The translations under genes were made by a program, and so were the position numbers. The notes under the pieces are model-generated. The model saw only the letters and a list, made by a program, of their open reading frames with translations. It was not told where the DNA came from and did no database searches. A stretch of 64,000 nucleotides of DNA from contig JAYXKI010000017.1 of the NCBI GenBank assembly GCA_037892935.1, forward strand, positions 496,001-560,000, written 5' to 3'. This document shows positions 825 to 57,900 of this stretch, piece after piece; the first letter of the stretch is position 1; every line of letters begins with the position of its first letter. Source of the DNA: Phlebopus portentosus. Lineage: Eukaryota > Basidiomycota > Agaricomycetes > Boletales > Boletinellaceae.

Positions 825-2683
825 TTAGTCTGAATGAAGCGATTGACCGGTTTGAGCTCCGATCGCCTCCTTCGCGCACATCCATCGATTGCCATCCCAT
901 TGACTCTTCCATGGATACCGGCAATGTTCTCGAGTCGTCTTTCCATCGTCCGATATGCCGATTATCGTATCTGGTGCGCGGCCATTTTCAACCCAATCCA
1001 CTAACGACAAAAGGACATTACTGGGCTGCGTTCCGGGAACCTGGAAATTTTCTTGAGAACTCTCCTTTAGCTTCGTTTGTTTCTCGTCAGTATGTTGCAA
1101 TCTCGATGACCCGATAGATTTTCTTTGTCCGAAGTTCACCGCTCCTTTTCCGCCAATACAATGCTCCATGCCTGGGACAAGGAAGAGCCTGTAAAACTCG
1201 TCAAGCGTCGATGGTTGCAGGCTTAGCGTGCGGGATATGAGGTTGTACAGCGACTTTGCGTTTCCCGACGGGACGAGCTACACCAAGACGATTAATATGA
1301 GCATATAGGGGAAAACCTTGCGGGAGAGCCCTCAACGATACGTACGTTATCGGCTCTACCATGATAGGTGATAATTTTTCCTCCGCGAGCACGGAAAGCG
1401 GATAAGTCTCCATCGAAGGTTGAGATGTTTTCTGGATCAATGGCTTGCATGCGGGCTACATCTGCGAGGCCGAACTGAGAGAAGTCGTAGCTCGAATCGT
1501 TTAGCACGACATATTTCATCCAATCCTAGAAGATAGTTATTGTCTGTAACGGCCTGGAGATCTATGCAAAGGGGGACCCACCTCTGTATAGGCAAATGGC
1601 TTCCCGGAGAACAAGGCCCATTTACCGAAAGATGCATTCTCGGCACCCGGGTCGAATCGCGGGAAGAGGTGATCGCCACCTAAGCCGTACAACGGCGAAT
1701 AGACCTTGCGCAACGCCTCTACTTGGATCTTCGACAAACAGTTTTCGTTGCTTCGTCCTTCACACAAAAGCGTTTCTGGAACGAAGTCGCAAGCATCTGG
1801 CTCTGTAATGATCCCGTCTATTACGCCGTCCAGACCATCGCATTGGCGAAAGATCTCCTCTGAAACTAAGTCCCAAAGGTGCGAAGGAATAAAATTCGCA
1901 CTTTTGTCTCCGTGAGGAGCTCCAAGATATTTTGTTATCATGCCGCTCCAGCCCATCAGGTGATTGAAGTTGGTTACAGGCGCGCCGGCAAGTACACCAT
2001 CGAAGTCCGATGGATAGTGCAGTGCGGCGTACATTCCTTGTCGACCGCCCGTTGAGCAGCCCATGTAGTAAGAACGACGCGGACGGCGTTCATAGTAGGC
2101 CGCGACAAGCTCTTTCCCGACAGCAGTCTCGACGTGGATAGCACGAGATGTGAAATCTTCAAGAATTTCGCTGTTATTTGCAAATAGAACACCAGAATTT
2201 CCATCGTGTCCATTGTTTGAAGCAATGGATGCGAATTCAAGTGAAGAACCGTAGTCTAGGTTGATGTAGTCTATACCTGATAAGCGAAACCCCGTTAGAT
2301 GAGGCGCGATTTCGAGAGCAAAGTATAGACATACAACCACCAAGGCCGCCATTTCCTAAAGCCAGAAACCTGCCACTCCATGACGTAGGAAGCCATGCTT
2401 CCGCCGTGACCGCAGACACGCTCGACGTGTTCACGACGAATTGGACTCGACACAACGGCTCGCTTATTTGGGCAATCGGGGTACAGACTCCAAGCGTTTC
2501 GACTTCCGTCGCATTTTCATAGTAAGTTGCATTCAGGATAATCGCGCTAATACTCGATAGATCGATTTCGCGCAGAGAATTACAAGCAGCCGCTGGATCG
2601 ATTTCATACTGACTGGGAGCTAATAAAGATAGAGCTGGAGCCAGAAATCGCCACTTCGACGCTGCCTGACGTAGGAAAGACAT
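825..2683 (-). CDS. Tannase/feruloyl esterase family protein (intact copy)
   Basis: Secreted serine esterase family (tannase and feruloyl esterase) that hydrolyses esters of gallic or ferulic acid in plant material. The ATG is at 2683; the nearest upstream in-frame codon is only GTG. The N-terminus has a hydrophobic stretch (RFLAPALSLLAPS) consistent with a signal peptide. The nucleophile motif GCSTGGRQG is clear, and the C-terminal GMEHC-GG motif with the catalytic-region His and Cys is present. The tail CRYPWKSQWDGNRWMC is the usual family ending. Three introns restore the frame: about 2363-2287 (GLGG to IDYINLDYG), about 1579-1525 (FAYTE to DWMKYVV), and about 1353-1284 (GRADN to LVPSGNAKS). 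All key motifs are in frame. A broken paralogue lies at 38151-39780 in the opposite orientation. Confidence 0.85.
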
Positions 2684-3082
2684 CACTTGTGGAGAAGTTG
2701 CGAGAATCTAGTAATAAATGGAGTGCGATACAGCGGTGCGTGCGTTACCAAGGGTCATGCTGTTGTCCACGTAACGGTCTAGGCGAAGTCGAGTCGTATA
2801 GGGCTGCTTAGTAATCAAGTGCGTCTGAAAAGGATTCGTTCACATCACGTGCCCTTGTCTAAATGGTTGGTTTGGTTTTATTCAAACAAGCAATCGCAGG
2901 GGTAGTCTCGAAAAAGTCACCATGCCGCATTTGTGCAACGGTTCTGAGATGATCACAGTCGTATTTAATGTACTAATGTACGAATGCGAGGGGTACCCTT
3001 CGTTATTATAATATTACCCTGGAGCTACTGCAAGGCTACACAATGAAGGACTATTACTTGAAAGCTTAAACACAGAAACGTA
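2684..3082. other. Intergenic, promoter side of the tannase gene
   Basis: About 400 bp upstream of the tannase ATG. No coding match was found. It should contain the tannase promoter, but no clear TATA element was identified. Confidence 0.4.
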
Positions 3083-3496
3083 TCAGGCCCTGTTCGGAGG
3101 ATCTGGAGGGAAGCAATTGCAAAGCACATAATTCTCATCTCTAGCTATCAATTGCTCCTTTCTGACCTCGAAACATTGCTGCAATACCTCTGTATACCGG
3201 CCGATATCGGACACGTCGATTATAGCAGACTGAGCAGAGGTGGGAATGTCAATGTCAAGGTAGCCAAAGGTTCTCTTTCCGAACGACTTTTGAATTGTTG
3301 CCCGGAGCCTCATCATATTTATCAATGCTCCTATTACACTCGTTGGCTCCTTTGAGAGGTATAAGACTGCATAGATGAAGAATCTTGAGTTCGGGGCCGA
3401 TGCAACGCTCGACGGGCCACTTTGTTCTCCTCGTTCTCTCAAATTCCTATCACAAGCTCGGGAAAGAAGCATTCCGATATAAATACGTTCGAGCAT
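3083..3496 (-). CDS. Hypothetical protein, function not recognised
   Basis: An open frame on the minus strand ends at 3083. The first ATG inside it is at 3496 (MLERIYIGMLLSR) and the frame stays open upstream to 3535, so a 5' exon may be missing. The protein is about 138 residues with alternating hydrophobic segments (SRFFIYAVLYLSKEP, SVIGALINMM) and ends CNCFPPDPPNRA. I do not recognise a family. It lies between the tannase gene and an F-box relic and may itself be a relic. Confidence 0.3.
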   Translation of the reverse strand: MLERIYIGMLLSRACDRNLRERGEQSGPSSVASAPNSRFFIYAVLYLSKEPTSVIGALINMMRLRATIQKSFGKRTFGYLDIDIPTSAQSAIIDVSDIGRYTEVLQQCFEVRKEQLIARDENYVLCNCFPPDPPNRA

Positions 3497-3911
3497 CGTA
3501 TATATCCCAGATACGGCGACAGTCGTAGTATTCAAATGACTTGCCCTTCCTCTGCCTCTGTGAAACTATCGTATACCCAAACATATTAGGGGCAGCTTCG
3601 AGCGCTGGGAAGAAATTGAATCATATTCCCTCTTCGACGGGCTTGAATAGTATAATGCTTCTAGACATGGTAATGCCACATGATCAATGATTGTCGCCGG
3701 AACTTCTCTGTCTTCCAGCTTGAGAGCTCAGAGGCAAGGCAAAATAAGATGAGGATGATGGCCATGTCGATCCGAAGAAACCAAGTCATGCCAGTGCGTA
3801 AATTTTGGAATCAAATTTCATGAGGAACGGGGTATTTTTAGAAATCCAAACTTATTTCGACTACGACTTTCAGTACATCCATACCTGGAAGAAAACTCAG
3901 AATTTCTTCTG

Positions 3912-4489
3912 CTAAACAGGCACGACGGTTTTCCGATAATTTATAGATCGGAATTGCTGTAGAGTTCGAGGCTCTGTAGGTGCGAGAATTGCGCGATATT
4001 GATAGTAGCACTCATTGAAAGGTTGACACGAAGGGGGAGTTAAACCGGGCATCTTGGTCATATCTAGTCCTAAAACCTTGTCGAAAATATCCATGCCGTA
4101 CAAGGCAAAATTCACATCCCATCGCCGGTACTGTTATGAAAGCAACTTCCTGATCATGTACTCGACGCGACGACGATCATCGACACTCACTCAATGAATA
4201 GTGAAACAAATAGGAGGTCGGAGGTCTTTTTGAACTGGAGAGCCACGTATCGAAAATGTCTACCAGCATCTTCCATTTACACAACTGTCCGACAGAAACG
4301 AAGAGAGATGCAAAGATGCGACCACAGTTCCCCAAACGACCAGGCCAGAGATCTCCAAGCTCGGCAGACATGCAAGATGTAAAGAGGCGTGGAGATTAAT
4401 GCTCTATAAGGTATGTCGAACTTATTAGTCAAGAGTGGCGAAGGCCGCAAGAAGATATCACAAAGGATTTCAGGAGCAAATGCCTCCAT
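3912..4489 (-). pseudogene. Truncated F-box protein gene, one frame break
   Basis: The minus-strand ATG at 4489 gives MEAFAPEILCDIFLRP, then the F-box-like family stretch ISTPLYILHVCRAWRSLAWS and ELWSHLCI. The frame must then shift by one to read CKWKMLVDIFDTWLSSSKRP, near 4290. An intron of about 60 nt (donor GTGAGTG near 4190, acceptor before 4130) joins this to a last exon that begins YRRWDVNFALYGMDIF and stops at 3912. The product would be short for this family, whose members usually carry long LRR-like C-termini. The frame break and the short length suggest a pseudogene or a truncated paralogue of the 1-262 fragment. Confidence 0.55.
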
Positions 4490-4829
4490 ACTGACCGTTC
4501 AAAACAAGGGTATGTTTCAGGTAAACGACGGATGGAAAGATCTTGCAAGCATCTCCGTACTCACTAAGAATAACTCTGTACTTACACCAGACCTAAGGTC
4601 ATAGACGATTACGAAATTGCGTCAGGTATAATTGCCAAATGGACCCTTTATGTAATAATCTTTAAGCCTAATCCTTATTTACGGATTACTATTGTTACTG
4701 TAACTCTTTATTGAGGGCGCTTGTGAATGCAACAATGGTTCTGAACATCTACGGTTCCGAATAGGGTCTCCTAACAGTACCTCAGGACTGGTGAGCCAAT
4801 GACTATCCATATTAAATAGGTGAATGAAT

Positions 4830-6874
4830 TCACGGAATCTCCAATAAATCCTGTGCGAATTTCTCAAGCCCGACAATCCGGAATCGATCTCCATAAGGCC
4901 CGTCCAACTTGACCTCCACGTCTGTTCGCCCATTTCCGGCGGTGCCTCCGACAGAACTGGTAGTCCCAGACCCACCGAACTCTTTGACCCATGCCTTACT
5001 TAAACCATACTCCCACGCGTACAATTCCACTCGCCATCCTTTCTTTAGAGCAGTACGCACAGCGCCGAGGAATCCATCTGCATTGAACTGTCCTACATTT
5101 CCATCCCCTGTGGCAAGCACAATAGTTGAGCCGGAGGGAGGAGGTGAGTCTGCGTCTGCGAGAGCTTGATGTAGTTTTAATTGCAAGAGCTCGTCGACAC
5201 CTTGCTCACGATACCGAATGCGACCTGCGCTTCCGCTTCCGGCTCCGCTAGCGATGGGAGCCAACGATGACGGCCCACTAACTGGTGCATGAGTGTACAC
5301 GCCCGAACCCCTCTAGTAGCCGTTGTTAAAGACGAACTTCGCGAGTGGCCGTTTGCATTCTTTGCAGCAGAAGGAGGGAGGGCCGGACCTGGGTCAGAGT
5401 CAGCGCTACCTGTCGCAGTACCCGAACTCATGGCGCCGCCACTTCGCTTGTTCTTAGCAACAACTTCTCGGGCGACTGCACGATCAAGTCCGTCACCGAG
5501 GTCCGGAACACGTGCGTACACACGCACTTCGTATCCAAGTCGTTCTGCACCGTCCATCGGCTGATACAGCGGAGAGGAGGTCGCAAGAACGCGCCGCGCG
5601 ATGGGCCGACCACGTTCTAAGATGAGCGTTAGAGCTGCATGCGACAAATGGGTTTTCGAACGTCGGGAAGGATGAACAGGGAACCTTCGAAGGTGATTGA
5701 GGAACCCGATCAGGATGTTAGAACTGTGATTGTCGATAGATAAGATACAAGCAATTAAACTCAATGCTGTGACTTACTGATCAACGAAGACATGGATGAG
5801 TGGATCGTCAGCGCCTTCTGGCGGCCGACCGCGCGGATCAATGAATCCATCTTCTCCAGGAGCATCGTTCAATAGGACGGAGGACAGATACCGTGCATCT
5901 TCAGTAAATAGCATGCGCAATTTCGTGGCGAGAGTCCGAAGACGAAGAACACGAGCATCAGGCGGTGTCGGAATAGTGACTCGGAGACTGGGAGTTGAAC
6001 GGCTATGGCTGAGTTTCGGATGTACTGGGATAGTCGCAGAGGTACCAGGAATTGTCACGGTCATCGGATCCTTCCTTTACCTTTGCTAGCAATGTTGCGC
6101 AAGCGACGGCTAGTACCATGCGGAGGAGTGGCAGGCACGGACTTGCCATGAGACCAATATTCTCCAGACGAAGAGCCGTCAAGGGCATCTCCGACCGGCG
6201 TAGCCACACCCTCAGCATCAGCTTCACCATCTCCGTCTGCATCCAAATCGACATTCGCCCCGCTTGTACTAGCACTCATACTCGATACGTGGTTCTTGTT
6301 TCGTTTCCTCCGACGTCTTCGGCGAGGTTCAATAACATGTCGCCAAGCACTCTCGCTTGTCGAAGCCTGAGATTGGCTAGATTGACCACCCTTTAGGCCA
6401 GCTTCTCTCTGAGCGGTGAGCTTGGCTCTTTCTGCGGCAAGAAATCCAAGCACATCATCAAGATACCCGAGAGAGGGTTGATCAATTCCATCCTTAATTT
6501 CCGCATTGTTACCGAAGTAATCGCCTTCACCATCGGAGTCGGAATACGATACAGAGCCGGATTTCGTCCAGACTGTTCTTGACTCCTCTCCGTCGGAAGG
6601 AGATACCACTAATGATGAGGTAGGGGTGCCGACTCGAGGAATGACAGGGGCTTGGCCGCGAGGCTGAAATTCCTGACGCAATACTTCAAAGACAGCGGAA
6701 AGTTGTCCAAGATCCGCCGGTTCTATACGAGATACTATCAGTCTTCCTAAAAGAATCATATGCTAAGATGCACTCGCCATCAGACGTCTGTCCTTCACTT
6801 CCAAATGAGTTACTCGACGAGAACGGACTGAAAGGCGTCGGTGAGAACGCAGTAGTATCTGAGTTTCTGTCCAT
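4830..6874 (-). CDS. NYN (PIN-like) domain protein, putative RNase
   Basis: Five exons on the minus strand. The ATG at 6874 has a good context (G at -3 and +4). Exon 1 ends at 6774, exon 2 is 6722-6081, exon 3 is 6024-5778 and exon 4 starts at 5723. A further intron, not resolved here, lies near 5430-5290, and the stop is at 4830. The NYN fold is visible as IHVFVDHSNILIGFL (first acidic site, created by the 5777-5724 intron), YEVRVYARVPD, then VDELLQLKLHQALAD, STIVLATGDGN and GWRVELYAWEYGLS. The TGDGN segment holds another metal-ligand Asp. NYN proteins are predicted metal-dependent endoribonucleases. The first 280 residues are low-complexity, rich in Ser, Gly and Asp, with a basic run PRRRRRRKRNKN that may bind RNA or direct nuclear import. 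The domain call is confident; the substrate is unknown. Confidence 0.8.
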
Positions 6875-25180: not shown

Positions 25181-28100
25181 ATGTCCTCGACTTTAATGAA
25201 ATGCAGTGGAAGCAGCTGTTGGCAATACTTCTCAAACTATAAGGCTTTGCACAGGCATGAGGCGTCTTGTGACGAAGTTTCCCACGCGAAAGTGCAGCCG
25301 AATCCGGAAGTCAAGAAGCATATTTTTGAAAGAAGATTGGCGAGATTTTCTTCCCTACGAAAAACAGACAAAGAACCGCAGATAGATGTACGTTTTTTTA
25401 AGTGCGGACTAAATTATGTCCTAACAGCAAAAAAAGGTAGTCTCTGCCAGTATGAACGACGATGACATGGACTCGTCTTCGGGATGACACTCAAAAGTAA
25501 ATGAAGCCACTGTCCCCCTTTTGTCCGCTACTGGCCGACCTGTCTGACCTCGTATGTTACCGAAGTGATACCGCCAGCTTTCCCCACCTAAGAATGTCCA
25601 ACAGCGGGAGCCCGATCCAGAGGAAGATATTTTGGTGTGGGACGACTCGGATGCTTGCCAGTGCGCAGATTCGGAAAGTAATCAGGAGCCTCGATTCGAT
25701 GTTTTCCGGACGGACCGTGATAAATTCGGGCTACAAAAAGTTTTTCGTCGGGAGCAGCCACCCTCGTCATCGAATTCCGATACGGTATCTCCTGAGGCGG
25801 AGCATTGAAATCCTTATCACCCCATCCCGAATTACAGTGCATACAGAATGTTCAAGTGGTTCTTGTCAAATTCCGCTACTAAATCCTTTGCTGATTTTAA
25901 GCGTCTACAACTCATTCTGAGCGACCCCAAATTTCATGCTGAAGACTTCATCGACGTTGATTTAGCGATGGTCAACAGGCGACTCGCAGACAGCTCTCTT
26001 GACGATGACGGCTGGATCAAGGTCCCCGTGACTATCTCAGTGCCCTTGGGTCACCTCAGTGACGATGCGCCGAAGTCTGTTGACTTTCACGTCGAAGGAT
26101 TCATGTATCGGCCTTTAATTGCTGTCATACAATCTGTGCTGAGGAAAGACGACGCCACAAATTTCTGCTACGAACCGTACCAGATGCGATATACTCCTCC
26201 GGGTGCGGAGCACGACATGGGTGTTTATGGGGAAATGTATTGGTCAACAGCATTTCGAGACGCGTACGAAGAAGTCCATAATCTGCCTCGTTCCGAAGCA
26301 GATACAACGCTCAGAACGATGATAGCTTTGCTGTTTTACTCAGACAGTATGATGGCTGCCAAATTTGGCGAGGCAAAGTTATGGCCCGTTTACCTGCAAA
26401 TCGGGAACCAATTGAAGCGACAGCGATGTAGACCTGGATCTGGAGCAACGCATCTTGTGGCATTGATCCCTTCTGTGCATCGTTGCCTGACTATTCATGC
26501 TTTTTCCCGACAAAATCCACACAGTTACCGAAGAATTTCAAAAGCTTTGTGACGTGGATGGTGAAAGGGAAAAAGGTTACACCCGACCTGCTTGCTCATT
26601 GCCGACGCGAATTGGTGCAAGCATGTTGGCGAATAATGCTCGACGACGCATTTGTACAAGCATGGGCTACAGGGGTGGTCCAGACGTGTAAGGATGCAGT
26701 CCTTCGAAAATGGTATCCGTGGATTCTTGCGTATTCAGCAGACCTTCCGGAGAAGTACGTTCACGAGTTTCACTCGAATTACGTGTGATTTTCACTTCTT
26801 TTGCTTCGTATAACCAGATTCCTGATGTCATGCTTGCGAGTACTGGGCAGATTACCATGTCCTCGCTGTCTCATCCCGGCGAATGAAATTATATCGGTTT
26901 TAGGAAAGAAAAAAGACATGAAATATCGAACTAAGTATAGATGTATAGATGACGATAGGAATCGGCATGCTGTCGCGACGGCTCGCTCTTTCATCTATGG
27001 TCAACGAATGGGATTAGGCTCTGTCGCTGTCAAGAATCAACTAGACCCCTGTTCGCTAACCCCTACAGAGAATGCCTTCTCGAATCGGCTTTCGCATCTG
27101 GGATTCAATATCTACGACGTAATGGTTGTCGACGTTCTACATGAATGGGAGGTAGGCATTTGGCCGTCTATACTGAGACACCTCGTCCGTATACTAGCGA
27201 CGTACAAGGACGTTGATCGAGTTCAAGTTATGAATGAGCGGTGCGTGTACCTGACAGGTTACGCTGTACAACAATTAACGTCAACATTTAACGACATCAC
27301 AGGGTGCGCTTCACGCCAGGCTTTGGTGAAAGCCTTAGAACATATAAAGGCAACCTTTCCGAGTTCAATCAAATGACAGGATATAATTACGAGGACGTGC
27401 TGCAGGTAAATTCTTTGCTTCGGTCACGTTCGCAAATGCATATACCGTATTTACAGTGCGCATTACCTATTTTCGATGGACTCTTCGACGACCTGCACAA
27501 ATCCATAGTTCGGTCCTTAATTTATCGGATGGTGACAATGCATTCACTGTCGAAGCTCCACATTCACACAGACGCAATGGTTGCTGCTCTTCACGAGGAG
27601 ACGCAACGATTCGCAGACTCAGTGCGCAAATTCATAAATGAGACATGCGAAGAATTTCATACGACAGAACTGCGTTCAGAAATCGAAAAGCGCCTGAGAC
27701 GGCAGGCAAGGGCAAAAATGACGCAAACAAGCGGAGACTCGACGAACTCCAAGAGCTCAGGCGGAAAAAAGAAGTTCAATGCAAACACTGCGAAGTTCCA
27801 CGTCATTGGAGACTACCCACGATCTATTGTCGAAAGGGGGTCAACGGATTCATACAGCACTGCCAATGTCAGTGGAAATACTTCCATCGTCTGAAATTAC
27901 ATGTAACTCTTTCTCAGGGAGAATCGGAACACAAATTTACTCGCAACATGTACCTCAGAACAAATTGTGTAAATTACGTCGAGCAAGTCTCTCGGTTCCA
28001 GAGGCGACTGGACAGCGTGGGTCGTATTGACGAGAGGGATGGAAATCAGCGATCTGAAGCAGCAGAAGCAGATATCCAAAGCGCCGAGCATTTGAATCCT

Positions 28101-32386: not shown

Positions 32387-35300
32387 GTGGGTGCTTTCGG
32401 TCATCCTTCCATCCTTACAATCAAGTTCGCTAATCACCTTCTTTCACGTTCCAGGTTCTTGCACCTAAAAGGTAATAACGTTTCCTTTCAAGCTTCGAGA
32501 TACCAGTCTCCTGACAAAAGAGTTCATTGCTTCGAAGGCGTGGAAGTCACCTTCAAGAATAAGCGCCCAAGATATCCCGTCAAGATCAAGCTTATCGAAG
32601 GCTCGTCACGTACCGAGCCTAGATCAAAGGAGTTTGCAGACGAAAATGAGAAACGGAGTGGAAGCAATAGCGGGACTTCGTTGATGTGGGACACCGATGT
32701 GTACGTCGCCTCTCAGGTATATATTCACGAAGGCAGAATATTGAAGGAATGTCTTTATCTCATCTTGGATAGGCATCTGTCTTCTGTCTCATTTCTCGAG
32801 GTCGTTGTCAAGAGTCCAAAGTTATGAAGTTCCTTTCAAAGAAGGATTTTGCGTCGGTCCGATTTGAGGCGAAGGAGATCGGTAAGAAGGAAGAAATTTC
32901 AAAAGAGAGTGAGCAATATTGGCATTTATTTCTATTGGGACCCATCATGGACTGACCGTGACGGTGCAGACACCGACGGCCTAATATCTGTGAAATTGAC
33001 TTTCACACCTCCTTATCGGTACATAAATCTCTTTTATTTACGCACCTATAAGTTTTTCAATGACGGTCGGCGAGAAGGCAGGAGAAGTCGTCCGCAGAGA
33101 GGCCGAAGACGCAGAAAAGCTTCTGGAGAAGAAACCAGTCGCACTGCAGAGACTCGGACGAGCGCGTGAATTCATCGAAGTAGCGAGGAACTTCGGAGTA
33201 ATGGTGGCTGATGTGAGCTTTGCGAGCGGCAACTTAAATTACCAATGTTGCTTTGCATGCTGACGAGAGACCGATAAACAGATCCACCCAGCAGCAAAAG
33301 CTGCCATTATCGCTTTCGACATGCTGTGGGAGGTGAATACCAACGCGTCCTGAATATATCTTCACATTCTAAAATTTTTGGAACAGAAACTCAAGAAACA
33401 GGAAGAAATTCACGAAGATGCCGCCAATCTCCTCGAGGAACTGCAATTATTCCTTCCCTTCACAGAAGTTGTTGATCCCAAGAGCCTGACAAGCGAAGCT
33501 GCCAAAAGTGCCATCCGAGACTTTCTCGACCTCTTCAAAGAGACCTGCGAGCTAGTCGTCCAGTACTCAAGCACCGGCGTAATTGGTTCGTTGAGAGTTT
33601 TTCGTCTGTATCATATTACTGAACGATGCCTTGCCTGTGTAGGGGACCTTATATCAACGCAGAAACCGAAGATCAGCCAGCTCGAGAAGGATTTCAGGAA
33701 AGTCAAGAGTAGGTATGACTGGAGTATCAAGACGGACGTATGGAGAGCGACCCTCAAACTTGGTCAGTTGCTTTTGTCATAGCATATCAGTTAGAATATT
33801 TCTTATCGTCATGACAGAGAAACTGCAGGACGATGAGATACTCAGACTTCTTCAAGTTTCTTTCACCGGTCCCGCCGGAAAAGAATACTACAGAACCGAC
33901 AGATGTTGTTTGCCTGGTACACGAGGCGTCCTGCTTGATCAGATATCGCAATGGGCCGAGTTTGCCTCGGGTCAGAAGCTCTACTGGCTACACGGTATCG
34001 CGGGGTCCGGAAAGAGCGCCATCGCCAATACTGTTGCCCGCGATTTCGACGAACAGCGGCTCCTTGCTGGATGTTTCTTCTGCAAACGCGATGATCCTGA
34101 TCTACGAAACACTGACAAGGTCATTCCATCCCTGGCGTTCCACCTTTCGGTCTGGCACCAGCCGTATTCCGCTAAGTTGCTGGCAATATTGCAGGGAGAA
34201 GAGAAGAACAAGCTTGCGTCAAAGACCGTACAAGAGCAATTCGAATTGCTGATCAAGGGTCCTGCTTTGGAGCTCTCTTCAGACGAGCAAATCCAATCCC
34301 CTCGGCCTCTGATCATCATCATCGACGCTCTCGACGAGTGTGGAATCAACATGCGCCAGAGATTCCATCTTGCGCAAGTTCTTGTCCAAGTTGCACAACT
34401 TGTACCCTGGCTGAAGCTCTTCGTCACAAGCAGACCACTACCCGAATTCTTCCAGGCGTTTGAGGGAATAGGAGACGCACTCAAGAAGCTCCACCTCAAC
34501 GAAGCCGGAGATCCAACAGCCGATATCATGCTTTATACCAAGCACAGGACTGATATTATCGCTACGGAGAATTGCTTCGATGCGACCTGGCTGACCGACG
34601 AACAGATCGATGCATTCACGCGGATGGCACACGGGTTATTCATTTGGACTAGTACCGTTTTCAACTTCATCGAGGGCCAGGTCGATATTGATCACGCAGT
34701 CGCAGTTGTCTTCGCTGCATCGACCGACCGGGAGGACGAAAATCCCGAGGCAGCATTGGACGACATATACAGAATGGTTCTCCAGGAAGTTGGGAAAGGT
34801 GGCCCGCGCAATATGCTGCTCGTCAAGACTGTCGCGGGCGTCATCTTCGGCACTGCTCGAAACGTCCCTCTTCCCGTAGATGCAATCTCGAAACTCATCC
34901 CGCAGTTCGACGAAAAGGTGATTAGCCGAGTCATAGACCAGCTCCAGGCGGTGCTGTACAAGGATATCGAGCAGCAGAACGCTATTCGTGTTTGCCATCC
35001 TTCTTGGATGGATTTTATGAGCCTGGAAACTCGCTCAATCCAGTTCTGGACTCAGCCATCTGACATCGACCTCAAGCTCGCATCGAGATGCTTGCATGTG
35101 ATGAAAGATAGCCTGAGCTTCAATATTTGCCGTCTAGACACTTCGTATCTAGCGAATAAGGACATTCCAGACTTGCAGAGGCGCGTCGCCACCGAGGTCT
35201 CGAGAGTACTAAGTTATAGCTGTCTCTATTGGATGATGCATGTCCAGGGGACGGACCCGGCGAAGCAAGACGATCTTTCCGAGTTGATAGTAGAGATTCT

Positions 35301-37626
35301 GTGCAATGAGATTGCACTCTACTGGCTTGAAGTGCTCAGCCTCCTCGGAGAACTGAAGAAGGGCATCCAAATGCTATCGCAGGCGAGAGTCACACTCGTA
35401 AACGCTGATGCAAAGGCGATGGCCCTGGAGCTCTTCCGTTTTGTGTCTGCATTCCATGATGCGATGGCGACAAGTACCCCACACCTGTATTTATCCGCCC
35501 TCGCATGGCTTCCGACAGACTGTGTCATGGCTCAGAAAATTGCTGGCAAATTCAATGGCCAATTGCCCGTGAAACAGGGTAAAGGTATTAATTGGCCCAA
35601 TACGTTATTGACAATCACGGAGAGTAGCTTAGTCCGAGCAGTTGCGTATTCGCGAGATGGGATGCACATCGCCTCTGGACGACAAGATGGAACGATCTGC
35701 ATTCGCGATCCTCAGACAGGAAACCTCGATGGTCCTCCCTTGAGGAATCATACTGCCCAGATTACCTCGGTCGTATTCTCCCCGGATGGAAAGCTCATCG
35801 CGTCGAGCTCTCATGATAGCACGATTCAGATCTGTGATGTCGAGACTGGGGCACCAGCGCACGATCCGATTACACTTGACGCTTTTGCAACTTCTATCGC
35901 ATTTGCTGCTGATGGGAAGCGCCTCGCGTCCGGCTCTGACGATGGCAGTATCTACATTTGGGACGTCGAGACTGGCAGTTTATTGGGGAAGCTAGAAAAT
36001 GGTCGGAACGGAGGTATTAGATCAGTCGTTTTTTCGCCTCTTGATGGTCGATACATTGCATCAGCGTCAGAATCAAAAGTAGTCCAAGTCTGGGACACGG
36101 AGCGCGGACAGCCAGTTGGAGGACCGCTCGAAGGTCACACTAACTGGGTGGTCTCCCTAGCATATTCTCCTGACGGAAAGTATATCGTGTCTGGGTCATA
36201 TGACAAAACGGTGCGAATTTGGGATGCAGCAACAGGCGACTTGTTTTATGAACCACTCACGGGACATACCGACTATGTCAATTCGGTAGCTGTTTCTCCT
36301 GAAGGCGACGTTGTCGTCTCAGCTTCATCCGACAGGACCATCCGCGTTTGGGATGCTCGATCAGGGAAGCTGATAGGAAAGCCGCTGAAGGGACACACGG
36401 GATGGATCATGGGCGTGGCATTTTCACCTGATGGCAAGCACATCATTAGTGGTGCCCATGATGAGTCTGTTAGGGTCTGGGATCTCGAAGCGGGGAATTT
36501 CGGTGAAGACTCGCTACGCGGTCAGATCAGATCCGTCGCAGTCTCTCCGGATGGAAGGCATATAGCATCTGCATCAACCGACGCAATTATTCAACTATGG
36601 GATATTGGAACTGGTAAGATCGTCGGGAAACCATTTGAAGGACACACTCGTTGGGTCAATTCGATTGCGTTCTCAAAAGACGGCAAGCATCTTGCTTCTG
36701 GATCAGACGATACGACGGTGCGCGTATGGGATGTTGAGACACACGAGTCTAAGGGTGAGCCACTCAAAGGACATACAGGTTTCGTCAAATCTGTCGACTT
36801 CTCCGAAGACGGAACTAAAGCTGTCTCCGGATCTATGGACAAGACCGTGCGTCTTTGGGATGCTCAGGCTTTGAAGCAAATTGGATTGGCGCTTACCGAC
36901 AACAACGATTGGGTCAACACGGTCACATTCTCCCCTGATGGGCGATATGTCGCTTCTGGAGCGGATGATTCAACAATCCTGATCTGGGATACAGAAACAG
37001 GAGAACTTGCAGGAGAGCCACTTGCGGGTCAGGGCGCTCACGTTTTCTCGATAGCATATTCTCCTGACGGAAACTGCATCGCCGCTGGGTTCGCCGATGG
37101 AAGCATTCGCATCTGGAATATCGACTTTGATATGCGTATCATAGTTTTCGACTATAATGGAACATCTGGGTCCATTCGCTCAGTGGCGTATTCACCTGAC
37201 AGTACCATCCTTGTAACTGGCTCAGATGAACGGCTGATCGAGATCTGGGATGGACAGCAGGGAGAGGCAATAGGCGAACCATTGACTGGACATACTGCCC
37301 GCGTGGTTTCTGTGGAATATTCATCCGACGGCAGGCTCATCGTGTCCGGTTCTGAGGACGGAACCATCCGTCTGTGGGAAGCAGAACGCACACCAAGCGC
37401 ACATATTACGGAGATTGACGGGATTCCTCCAGCCTACGTTCCTGATGACGGTTGGATTAGGACATCGAACGGTGAATTGCTGTTGTGGGTACCAGTGGAA
37501 CATCGGAACGGTGTCTGTGATAGATCCTCGATGTGCATCCCTCCTGATGCTCTAGGCCATTTGGTTCGTGTAGATTGGGATAAGCTCCGACATGGTCCTT
37601 CTTGGGTGGATGTCAGGAAAACGTGA
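32387..37626 (+). CDS. NACHT-WD40 STAND protein (NWD type, fungal NOD-like receptor architecture)
   Basis: Signal-transducing P-loop NTPase of the STAND class, the fungal counterpart of NOD-like receptors. The N-terminal exons (32387-33780) encode a beta-rich domain (VEVTFKNKRPRYPVKIKLIEG) and a helical region (IHPAAKAAIIAFDML, LQLFLPFTEVVDPKSL) that I associate with other agaric NWD proteins. The large exon starts near 33819, where splicing gives ATLKLEKLQDDEIL. The NACHT domain follows, with Walker A GIAGSGKSAIANTVA and Walker B LIIIIDALDECG. The C-terminus has 14 WD repeats counted by their terminal dipeptides (from ICIRD near 35700 to IRLWE near 37380), enough for two seven-bladed propellers. 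They likely sense a ligand. The start at 32387 is provisional, and several small introns precede the main exon. HET-E and HET-D of Podospora share this architecture; a role in incompatibility or immunity is inference. Confidence 0.85.
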
Positions 37627-54663: not shown

Positions 54664-55021
54664 CACATCACGAATAAGAATGCCACTCACAGCGCGCGAG
54701 GTGCATGAGTGCGCGACGAGAAAGGGTAAGGAGCGGATAGGCAAGAAAGAGATGGGGAAAGCTGGTATGACGCCTGACCGTCGTCCGGTGGGACCGTAGG
54801 TTTTGTTTCGTAATGTAATTTTTACGGACCACGCAAATTTTGCGCATCCTTACCCGGATAACGAGCCGGTCGTGCCATCAGCTCATTGGTCCGGGATGCC
54901 GGGCGCATGTCCTCATTGGGCGATGCGTCACCACGGTGATTCGCAGTTCACTGGACGGACACGGAGTTTTGCGAGCGGAGAATGAGTGGCGAATGGAGGA
55001 ACCGCAATGATGAATATGTAA
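54664..55021. promoter_or_regulatory. Promoter side of the NADH dehydrogenase gene
   Basis: Upstream of the minus-strand gene. CCAAT-type words (ATTGG on plus near 54884 and 54915) occur, as is usual for respiratory genes, but their function is an inference. Confidence 0.35.
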
Positions 55022-55049
55022 AGGCACCGAGATAACTTTTGAGATGCAT

Positions 55050-55112
55050 GTGGGAATTTAAAATCTCATGATGTGTTTCTCCCACATGAGAGATTTTAAA
55101 TTTCCATGCTGG
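55050..55112. repeat. Imperfect inverted repeat next to the Pack-type element
   Basis: GGAATTTAAAATCTCAT is mirrored by ATGAGAGATTTTAAATTTCC after a spacer of about 20 nt. Confidence 0.7.
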
Positions 55113-55140
55113 AGGGATCTTCCTGGCCTTCAGAAGATAC

Positions 55141-55399
55141 CACAGGGGGTAGAATTACGTTTCGGAGCTGCTTATAAATGAAACAGAATTGGAAAGCTCA
55201 CCTCTGATTGGCTGGATTCCAGTTCCGGATCAAATATTTTAGGATCCGAAATAGGGTTTTGCCCCCTGTGTACTAAATCTCGGCCTAATGGAAATGAAAT
55301 CTAAAATTTAATTGGTGCATCTCGTAAGCACCGAGATTTTGATGCGATCGGTGCGCGATCAGAGCGCGACCATTGCGCGACCGCCGGCGCGCGATGAGT
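55141..55399 (+). repeat. Left inverted arm of the gene-capturing element
   Basis: Starts CACAGGGGGTAGAATTACGT and matches the reverse complement of 56578-56910 over its whole length, including AACAGAATTGGAAAGCTC, AATTGGTGCATCTCGTAAGC and the GC-rich inner end GCGCGATGAGT. It is shorter than the right arm by an internal gap of about 85 bp. Within it, the first 132 bp are themselves flanked by CACAGGGGG and CCCCCTGTG, like a nested MITE. Confidence 0.9.
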
Positions 55400-55551
55400 G
55401 AAGTCAGAGATGAGATATTATATTTTATGTCGCTAATCTTCGGTCCCCACGAACCAGTAACCACGAGAGACAAATGCTAACATTTATACTAGGTTATGTT
55501 GTATCAATTTGTCATGATATTTCACCCGTACATTGTCTCTTCAACTATCAG

Positions 55552-56477
55552 TAAGTCAAACCCTGCGTTCGCGGATACAATACGACTGGCTCGCGATCCA
55601 AAGCACCCCATGGCGGCAGTGTTGCCCTTTTGCAAAGGGAAATGGTATCCGAAGCTGATTCCTGAATCCCAATTCGACGGAGCCGGTGGTTCAGAGCGAC
55701 CCGAGGACCCAAACCGCGGCCATGGTGATCATGGACACGTTCAACCACATATTCGGAAGGAGCAATATAAAGGTCGAAGAGTGATGAGGATGAAGAGCTC
55801 AAGGTAGCACAACCGGATAAATGTCCCTTCATGCACGCCGAGGTCTTTAACGTTTTGGGAAAAAATCTCCGACGATGATCTTGCTTTACTCGAGCTATCA
55901 AATGATACGCGTGTCCAGACTGGATGATTCTTACGGTTCTACATGTTCCACCGACGTGGAGCCTTGCACAGTCAGGACGATTTGACGTGCAAATTGGGCG
56001 GCATCATAAAAGCGTCCGCGAATGTATTCGGATATGAAGAGGAAGGAGCTCGGGCCCATGTTATATCTGAGTTTGAGCAGTTGCTCCAGATAAGCAATCA
56101 GATATGTGGTAAGAGACCGCTTACCACGTTATGTCCGGTTCCATGTCTCCACATACGTGGACAATGACATTGCTGGGACACCTAAAGCTCTAAAAAAGTC
56201 TGGTCGATCTGTCAAAGCTATTCACGCTCGTTTGCAGTAACGGCAAGGAGGGTCATCTACGTGGTAACTTGATGGGAAAACGTGCCGATGCATTGTCATC
56301 ACCGGAGACCCAAACCTAGAACTTGACGAAGTCGGCGTGCCGAAGAGCATTGTCGTAACTCTCACGTACCAAGAAAGAGGTTAATAGGAAGAGCGTCTTG
56401 ATTGATGTGTGGTTTAAAACTGTTTGACAGTGACCCCGTACAATATCGCGTACTTACAAGAACTCGTGCGGAATGTA
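55552..56477 (+). pseudogene. Captured fragment of RPB1 (RNA polymerase II largest subunit)
   Basis: The plus strand reads, in broken frames: SNPAFADTIRLARDPK, then GHVQPHIRKE, then ISDDDLALLELSNDTRVQTG followed by a stop in place of Trp, and SQDDLTCKLGGIIKASANV with AHVISEFEQLLQ. After a short gap come [40 protein letters not shown] and VTPYNIAYLQELVRN. These are the clamp-core segments of RPB1 in their natural order, up to the conserved GNLMGKR and [12 protein letters not shown] region. An intron before VTPYNIAY is retained (56381-56432), so the copy came from genomic DNA. Stops and indels make it non-coding. The zinc-binding N-terminus and everything after LVRN are absent. Confidence 0.92.
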
Positions 56478-56577
56478 ATGAGAGGTTTAACTTCCGCAGA
56501 CTGTAAATCACGTACAAGTAAGGAGATCAACGCTAAAAAGTACGAAACTGAGGATGAGAGAAGCAACGAAGTAAATC

Positions 56578-56910
56578 ACTCATCGCGCGCTGATCGCGCA
56601 ATGGTCACGCTCTGAAAATGTCGGTGCTTACGAGATGCACCAATTAAATTTTACATCTCGGATCCAACGAGATTTATAATTAGCATCTCACGGAGGATTT
56701 CGGGCAGGCACATTGAGATCCAACAAAGAGATCCTAAATTTCATTAGCTAAATTTTTAGTTTCCGTTAGGCCGAGAGTAATACAGGGGGCGAAACCCTAT
56801 TTCCGAACCTGAAAATTTCGATCCGGAACTGAAATCCAGCCAATTGGAGGCGAGCTTTCCAATTCTGTTTCCTATATAAACGGCTCAGAAACGTAATTCT
56901 GCCCTCTGTG
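56578..56910 (-). repeat. Right inverted arm of the gene-capturing element
   Basis: The reverse complement begins CACAGAGGGCAGAATTACGT and follows the left arm closely. It carries about 85 bp more, located between the GGCCTAA and AATTGGTGC words. Confidence 0.9.
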
Positions 56911-57900
56911 CGCAAGTTATGTTATCACCGCGCTCTCCCATCCTAATCCTTTTCCTTCACCAATACCTGTTAACGTTGTCTTTGATTCCTGCAGGTGGGC
57001 TCTTTCGTGTGCTTTACTGAGTCACGAAAATCACTTGGTGAAGTGAAAGAGTTTTCTCTTGAGGTTTTACACGTACCTGAAATTATCATGCCTACATGAC
57101 GAGCGATTGCTGATCCCAAGATTATCATCAACACGTTACTTACAGTACGTACAGCCCAAAGTCTTACAATGTCTGCTGCAGTCGATGGCAGTACAGCGAG
57201 TCGCGAATTCGGTATGTTCGGGCTCACAGCTGTAGGATGGAATTGCAGTTAGTGCTATTGAAATGTAGTTGGACCTGATGAACAGTTTTCCTGCTTTCGC
57301 AACCTTCTATGGTACATGATCATCCGTGAGCGATGTCATGTAGGTATTAAGTATATGAATTAAATTATGCTTCAAGCTAGTAGACAGTTTTTCAGGGCCT
57401 TAGAGAATTGGGTGGAAAGTGATACCGCGACCTCGGTGTTGGCAAATTTGCCGTCCTTCCTTCTTGCCTCCTTGTTTTCCTGCATATGTAACTTCTGCTT
57501 CACGTTAGTACTTTCACAATAAAAAAGTTCTGAAATCGATGAAATGCGGCCGCTTTGACTGACGCATCTATAATTTCCCTGTTCGGACGTGAGGTGTTTA
57601 CGACCGTCGACCGCAGTGCGCCTTATACCCCATATCAAGTGTAAAGATGATCAACACCGTACGACTCACCGACCTACAACTGAGTGCCTTCAAAGCCGAG
57701 CAGTGCGCATCTTTACGCGATAGTACCTCTGTCGCAAATATAAAGCTCTCGAGTCAATCCAGTGAGGAAATCCCCAGTTCGGGATTTTCGGATTTTCGTC
57801 GAAGATTTTGGCCATTTGCTTCCTGACTCGTTCATTTCCACACTTTCCTCGTCCACAGTTCGGGCCTCGCTCCTGTAGAACAGTTCCGCGAGAGGTCAAT
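56911..57900. other. Interval upstream of ARO1
   Basis: No gene was recognised. A minus-strand frame at 57372-57638 lacks motifs. The last few hundred bases should be the ARO1 promoter, but no TATA box was seen. Confidence 0.4.

Follow-up and report, generated by a model that had tools for sequence, protein, structure and literature searches.

A probable EnSpm/CACTA-type transposon relic carrying part of an already broken RPB1 copy

How did part of the gene for the largest subunit of RNA polymerase II (RPB1) come to lie between two inverted arms, and what carried it there? The locus that raises this question lies in a window of 64,000 nucleotides (C17:496001-560000, the whole stretch of DNA that was analysed), with an NDH2-type oxidoreductase gene on one side and an AROM-type gene on the other. 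An initial annotation had taken it for a single transposon that had captured part of the genomic RPB1 gene. Having searched the genome (38.4 Mb, 23 contigs), we consider that the feature is probably a decayed non-autonomous EnSpm/CACTA-type transposon, in which part of a broken RPB1 duplicate travels as passenger.

The RPB1 fragment and its carrier

The host RPB1 gene is found within C1:4203000-4210883 on the minus strand; its 3' open stretch covers 1,215 codons, CTD repeats included, and its protein is 99% identical to RPO21_1 of Sanghuangporus vaninii, with 98% of the 1,002-residue query covered, which places the host in Sanghuangporus or very near it. The host counterpart of the window fragment is C1:4207553-4208614, minus strand. 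As had been noted from the letters alone, the RPB1 segments follow each other in natural order between the arms, and both a six-frame reading and alignment to the host gene confirm that they carry stops and indels. The two PF04997 matches inside the fragment (E 4e-5 and 4e-4) are both below Pfam's cut-off, so its identity is based on the DNA match. Retention of an intron had also been claimed, and this stands, except that comparison with the parental gene reveals two introns rather than one; since both introns of the stretch are kept, the duplication was at the DNA level. The RPB1 part ends downstream at about 56484, after which sequence common with a relative, L025, resumes. Profile searches between the arms (C17:551000-552910) gave no match to tnp2 or Plavaka, the two transposase families scanned, and six-frame reading gave broken frames only, in agreement with the earlier statement that a transposase is absent. 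Nothing testable gave any sign of a protein or regulatory role, and the window copy most likely belongs to a dead transposon that it merely accompanies as a passenger; we infer that it lacks function.

The inverted arms are genuine, with complementary blocks of 129 nt (86%), 52 nt (88%), 22 nt (95%) and 22 nt (86%) and a best self-match of E 1e-42, yet they are not the two ends of one element, as had been proposed. The outer 130 bp of either arm is a miniature CACAG...CTGTG element (MITE) with ends CACAGGGGG...CCCCCTGTG, and the two are separate insertions into the carrier's arms; in the case of MITE 1 this follows from a TAC duplication placed inside carrier sequence, which continues outside the element. 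Among 31 copies of the 130-bp element with unique flanks, drawn from the fetched loci and the window, the 3-base flanks are equal in 20; when the comparison is offset as a control, this holds for 1 of 31. A search pattern that covers the two types of end found 89 matches in the genome (by our count 15 with CACAGC ends and 74 with ends of the miniature element), and its reversed control found none. The initial annotation had suggested a search for empty sites, and L025 has one for MITE 1. Although MITE 1 and MITE 2 belong to different subfamilies, their places in the two arms nearly coincide and their orientations match.

The limits first given, 55141-56910, have to be revised on both sides. 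Leftward the carrier continues to about 54996, an extrapolated start, the first 8 bases being degenerate; the stretch that aligns with the L025 repeat, 55004-55127, is 79.5% identical over 132 columns (E 8e-28). The right end is lost, no matching right outer repeat being present within the window, and the target duplication of the window copy is thus unreadable. The carrier, which we call family A, is defined by L025, L026 and L030 (Table 1), relatives whose ends are intact. Their terminal repeats begin CACAGCGGGCAATGATGCATCTC, the family-A ends being CACAGCGGGCA, and two of the three have 3-bp target duplications. Their RPB1 parts correspond to host positions 2270-3463, 2270-3460 and 2221-3332, respectively. 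These relatives, with largely the same RPB1 stretch, long terminal repeats and short target duplications, bear out the claim of gene capture by a transposon that has no transposase of its own. The window copy and L022 are decayed members, and L074 and L075 are fragments with 190 and 38 columns of RPB1, the first interrupted by a sequence that we take from its reading frames to be Gypsy-like. Five further loci (L076-L080) hold solely pieces of carrier ends or interior, with RPB1 absent; all are partial, and among them no positive case of the arms flanking other cargo was found. A short near-palindrome (77%) lies at 55051-55106 in the carrier's left terminal repeat (L021 1152-1207), and a palindromic repeat of ~1.07 kb adjoins two family-A elements, being 85% self-complementary at L026 3001-4062 and 96% at L030 14-1091.

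Table 1. Features of the window copy and location of the intact-ended family-A relatives
Feature	Position (strand)	Remarks
Outer left terminal repeat of carrier (family A)	54996..55140 (+)	55004-55127 = L025 repeat positions 9-138
TAC, 3-bp target duplication of MITE 1	55138..55140 (+)	second copy 55271-55273; empty site AAGATACTAAATCTCGG in L025
MITE 1	55141..55270 (+)	130-bp CACAGGGGG...CCCCCTGTG element; 95-98% to L002-L008 copies
Inner left terminal repeat of carrier	55273..55382 (+)	–
RPB1 fragment	55466..56484 (+)	homologous to host gene 2270-3331; 81.6% over 1,079 alignment columns
First retained intron of captured stretch	56090..56138 (+)	= host 2931-2979; splice donor decayed
TGCAGTA, 5-bp frame-breaking insertion relative to host gene	56233..56239 (+)	TACAGTA in 5 of 8 insertion-bearing copies
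Second retained intron of captured stretch	56380..56430 (+)	= host 3227-3277
Carrier sequence 3' of RPB1 part	56497..56600 (+)	87.5% to L025
Inner right terminal repeat of carrier	56582..56776 (-)	outer part beyond absent from window
MITE 2	56781..56910 (-)	other subfamily: 95% to L042, 86% to MITE 1; no target duplication
L025	C8:1969039-1971357	477-bp terminal repeats, 94.5%; flanks AGG/AGG
L026	C5:2539015-2541171	396-bp terminal repeats, 88.9%; flanks AAG/AAG
L030	C8:1606311-1608144	444-bp terminal repeats, 90.8%; flanks ACTA/ACTA (4-bp repeat)

Genic DNA between terminal inverted repeats, the hallmark of Pack-TYPE elements, is found in the window copy, L025, L026 and L030. The annotation had named the plant Pack-MULEs as the well-known example of such capture, and like these the element holds a genomic gene fragment inside long terminal inverted repeats. 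Mutator elements make longer target duplications, of about 9 bp. Those of family A are 3, 3 and 4 bp, unlike a Pack-MULE, and we rejected that class; duplications of 3 bp and ends of the form CAC..GTG favour EnSpm/CACTA over Mutator. Helitrons have neither terminal inverted repeats nor a target duplication, and family A, which has both, does not fit them. CAC..GTG ends are present in 3/3 intact relatives and a 3-bp duplication in 2/3, both of which are given for fungal EnSpm elements in PMC12730594, and as far as sequence can tell, family A fits a non-autonomous element of the EnSpm/CACTA type. An EnSpm/CACTA transposase would then be its mover. The genome has 20 matches to tnp2 (PF02992, Transposase_21), and 36 to Plavaka. 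The same source gives Plavaka ends as TGT..ACA or CATCA..TGATG (PMC12730594); the ends here read CACAGCGGGCA, a Plavaka locus (L081) is without such ends, and Plavaka was rejected as mover. No autonomous partner with the same ends was seen around the transposase in the loci read (L081, L082), and the CACAGCGGGCAAAAATAGG match at L082 has no partner end within the 4.5 kb read. Elsewhere in the window, 25809-26549 is a Plavaka transposase reading frame (PF18759, E 2.8e-9).

Spread and shared damage of the RPB1 pieces

Searching with the interior of the element, we found RPB1 pieces at at least 39 non-host loci, the window included. This is a lower bound, the 45 matches coming from a search in which 40 of 61 candidates were scored; merging left out the host locus and second rows at C8:1607143, C8:1607478, C8:1970803, C5:2539446 and C4:1330818. 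The loci comprise ten long copies and 29 short ones, the latter about 180-320 bp in length. Of the short loci, 25 have an HSP70 match upstream, at a distance of 0-56 bp in 24 cases and of 409 bp in the remaining one; none of the 10 long loci has one. As the HSP70 search, in which 72 of 218 candidates were scored, listed at least 106 matches, the chimeras of HSP70 and RPB1 number 25 or more. Thus RPB1 is not the sole amplified gene; HSP70 is another. A comparable spread of the sister polymerase genes was not seen in control searches with two domains, PF04997 and PF00562. Of the 23 matches to the first, 16 fall on the ten long RPB1 copies, 3 on the host RPB1 gene and 4 on two places of C3 taken to be putative polymerase I and III genes; the second, one RPB2-family domain, gave 6 matches at 3 loci.

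The broken RPB1 occurs in at least three contexts, namely family A, a tnp2-linked repeat and the HSP70-RPB1 chimera. Two near-identical long copies, L027 and L028 (97.6%), have a tnp2 match 3.0 kb downstream, which near L027 lies inside a 565-residue open frame. A repeat at C20:237517 and C16:37439 onward is 99.6% identical over at least 9,484 bp and codes for WD40 repeats (PF00400, E 1e-9), the CAF1B/HIR1 models matching below cut-off. HSP70, RPB1 and WD40 pieces adjoin one another from C20:237517 onward (L071, L037, L072) and from C16:37439 onward (L083, L084). In the window itself, 33643-37623 is a long open frame (1,327 codons) with WD40 repeats. We do not claim a single giant element: the nearest tnp2 is 32.6-37.7 kb downstream in 8 of the 29 short loci, 4 on the same and 4 on the opposite strand. 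Finally, L024, L029 and L031, which cover parts of host 1535-4976, have no carrier repeat within 1.5 kb on either side, and a 130-bp element lies near L029.

It is the damage common to these copies that bears on their source. A 5-bp insertion at host 3073 is present in 8 of the 9 aligned copies covering the site, exactly as TACAGTA in 5 and as a variant in L031, and is missing from L029; this alignment left out L028 (97.6% to L027) and the chimera copies L033 and L035. TACAGTA resembles the footprint of a Tc1/mariner excision. Of six copies compared at a Cys codon, TGC, four have TAT, the window copy has CAT and L025 keeps TGC; the Cys, a zinc ligand, is present in three other fungal proteins (P0001-P0003). 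Three of six copies have a stop at host 2463. At 3217, where the host has Pro, 9 of 12 copies have Gln, all 4 chimera copies among them, and the remaining 3 have other residues; at 3847 Pro has become Thr in all four copies read. The RPB1 part of the chimera begins at 3088, 3' of the 5-bp insertion, so its tie to the other copies is via substitutions only. Because damage is shared (the 5-bp insertion, Pro to Gln), the sequences indicate that the copies descend from one broken RPB1 ancestor, and not, as the initial annotation had it, from the genomic RPB1 gene itself. At codon 2397, Pyrrhoderma, Coniferiporia and 4 of 6 copies have Pro, and the host and S. vaninii have Ala; the duplication therefore seems older than the change to Ala in the latter two. 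Unrooted trees are ladders in which the host gene stands among the copies, and they leave the root unsettled.

L025 groups with the host gene in one tree (99) and with L026 in two others (79, 86). Of 49 diagnostic sites, 11 in a row match the host in one tract of L025 (host 2524-2634, about 1820-1940 of L025; permutation p 0.0004). This tract is probably a gene conversion of the element by the working RPB1 gene; the ancestral state of the host at the Cys codon suggests that the direction was from gene to element. An earlier branching of L025 is a possible alternative. By a rough measure, the host gene being under selection, C-to-T type changes affect the CpG sites of the host sequence more often than its remaining C/G positions in 13/13 copies (27/157 against 21/339 in the window copy, 53/180 against 28/375 in L026), with the excess barely present in L027, L034 and L037 (9/95 against 18/221). 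The pattern is consistent with methylation of some copies.

Proposed history and its rivals

We propose the following order of events. Part of host RPB1 would have been duplicated at the DNA level, introns included, and stretches between 1535 and 4976 survive. This duplicate would then have been disabled by mutation, in part probably by a passing Tc1/mariner element with TACAGTA as its trace, after which a sub-piece (about 2221-3463) may have come between long CACAGCGGGCA terminal repeats and been spread by a transposase acting in trans. Further pieces of the same pseudogene may have entered the tnp2-linked repeat and the HSP70-RPB1 chimera, the latter now at 25 loci or more. In the window copy, one 130-bp miniature element would later have inserted into each arm, and the right end would have been lost.

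A different source is conceivable, in which the same region was captured repeatedly and independently from the working RPB1, as a capture hot spot. The place of the host gene among the copies in the ladder trees would suit this, as would the overlapping but unequal RPB1 stretches held by the carriers, and some shared states are ancestral (codon 2454 is Ala in 6/6 copies and S. vaninii, Val in the host). However, a working gene is no source of disabling changes such as the 5-bp insertion in 8/9, the two-base Cys to Tyr change and the stop, and Pro to Gln is common to different carriers. We consider this account unlikely, and a separate capture by each carrier was rejected, being largely refuted for the long copies by the shared damage. 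Quite unlikely, too, is a processed or segmental RPB1 pseudogene beside which the repeats lie by coincidence: the kept introns speak against processing, and three intact-ended copies with similar boundaries and short target duplications speak against coincidence. For L024, L029 and L031, which have no carrier repeat within 1.5 kb on each side, the coincidental reading may well be right; for family A the target duplications are against it.

What of the model of one Pack-type transposon, running from 55141 to 56910 with arms of 260 and 330 bp and ending at CACAGGGGG? The arms are indeed real and inverted and enclose the fragment, and the similar place and matching orientation of both 130-bp elements also speak for it. 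Against this, the 130-bp element is mostly solitary among the fetched loci, each of the two copies has its nearest kin in a different group (98% and 95%), they are 86% identical to each other, and their outer flanks are unequal, with TAC at 55138-55140 and CGC at 56911-56913. Together with the TAC duplication inside carrier sequence that runs on beyond MITE 1, this makes a single element highly improbable. The reading of a decayed EnSpm/CACTA-type carrier with a pseudogene passenger is the one that we retain.

Relation to known systems

The nearest parallel is histone H3 carried by a hAT element in Pseudocercospora fijiensis and its relatives, where hundreds of copies are inactivated by RIP (PMC6710886). 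There, as here, a housekeeping sequence was captured by a fungal DNA transposon and became many inactive copies, with the original intact (PMC6710886). Unlike hAT-H3, the present case has EnSpm-type ends, an RPB1 piece that was already broken and the same pseudogene in several contexts. Family A also resembles plant Pack-CACTA and Pack-TYPE elements in being non-autonomous, with CACTA-type ends and genic DNA between terminal repeats, and according to PMC8903248 cargo from more than one locus occurs in these; it differs in its fungal host, its terminal repeats of 396-477 bp and its pseudogene source. Fungal DNA transposons that carry TET/JBP share the EnSpm-type ends and duplications, with cargo that moves between lineages, yet their cargo is an enzyme gene (PMC12730594), and here it is a broken non-coding piece. 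The Helitrons of Pleurotus are likewise mushroom transposons with extra genes but, unlike family A, are rolling-circle elements (PMC4289320). In the titles and abstract openings of top-ranked, mostly non-subscription literature we found no account of RPB1 as transposon cargo. Amplification of a housekeeping gene in fungi is known (histone H3); the notable part is one pseudogene cargo common to different vehicles.

There is also a practical side. A 182-aa protein of Sanghuangporus baumii deposited as RNA polymerase II largest subunit (P0121) matches the L024 pseudogene piece at 98% identity and carries the Cys to Tyr change, and from its sequence it is probably a misannotation. RPB1 serves as a phylogenetic marker. 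It is very doubtful, though conceivable, that pieces of essential genes (RPB1, HSP70) are kept because they help the transposons: homology to a gene that the host must not silence would make homology-guided silencing of the element costly, and the broken RPB1 would for that reason be kept and passed between unrelated carriers. With one damaged RPB1 traceable by its scars through several carriers, the exchange of cargo between transposon families becomes directly traceable.
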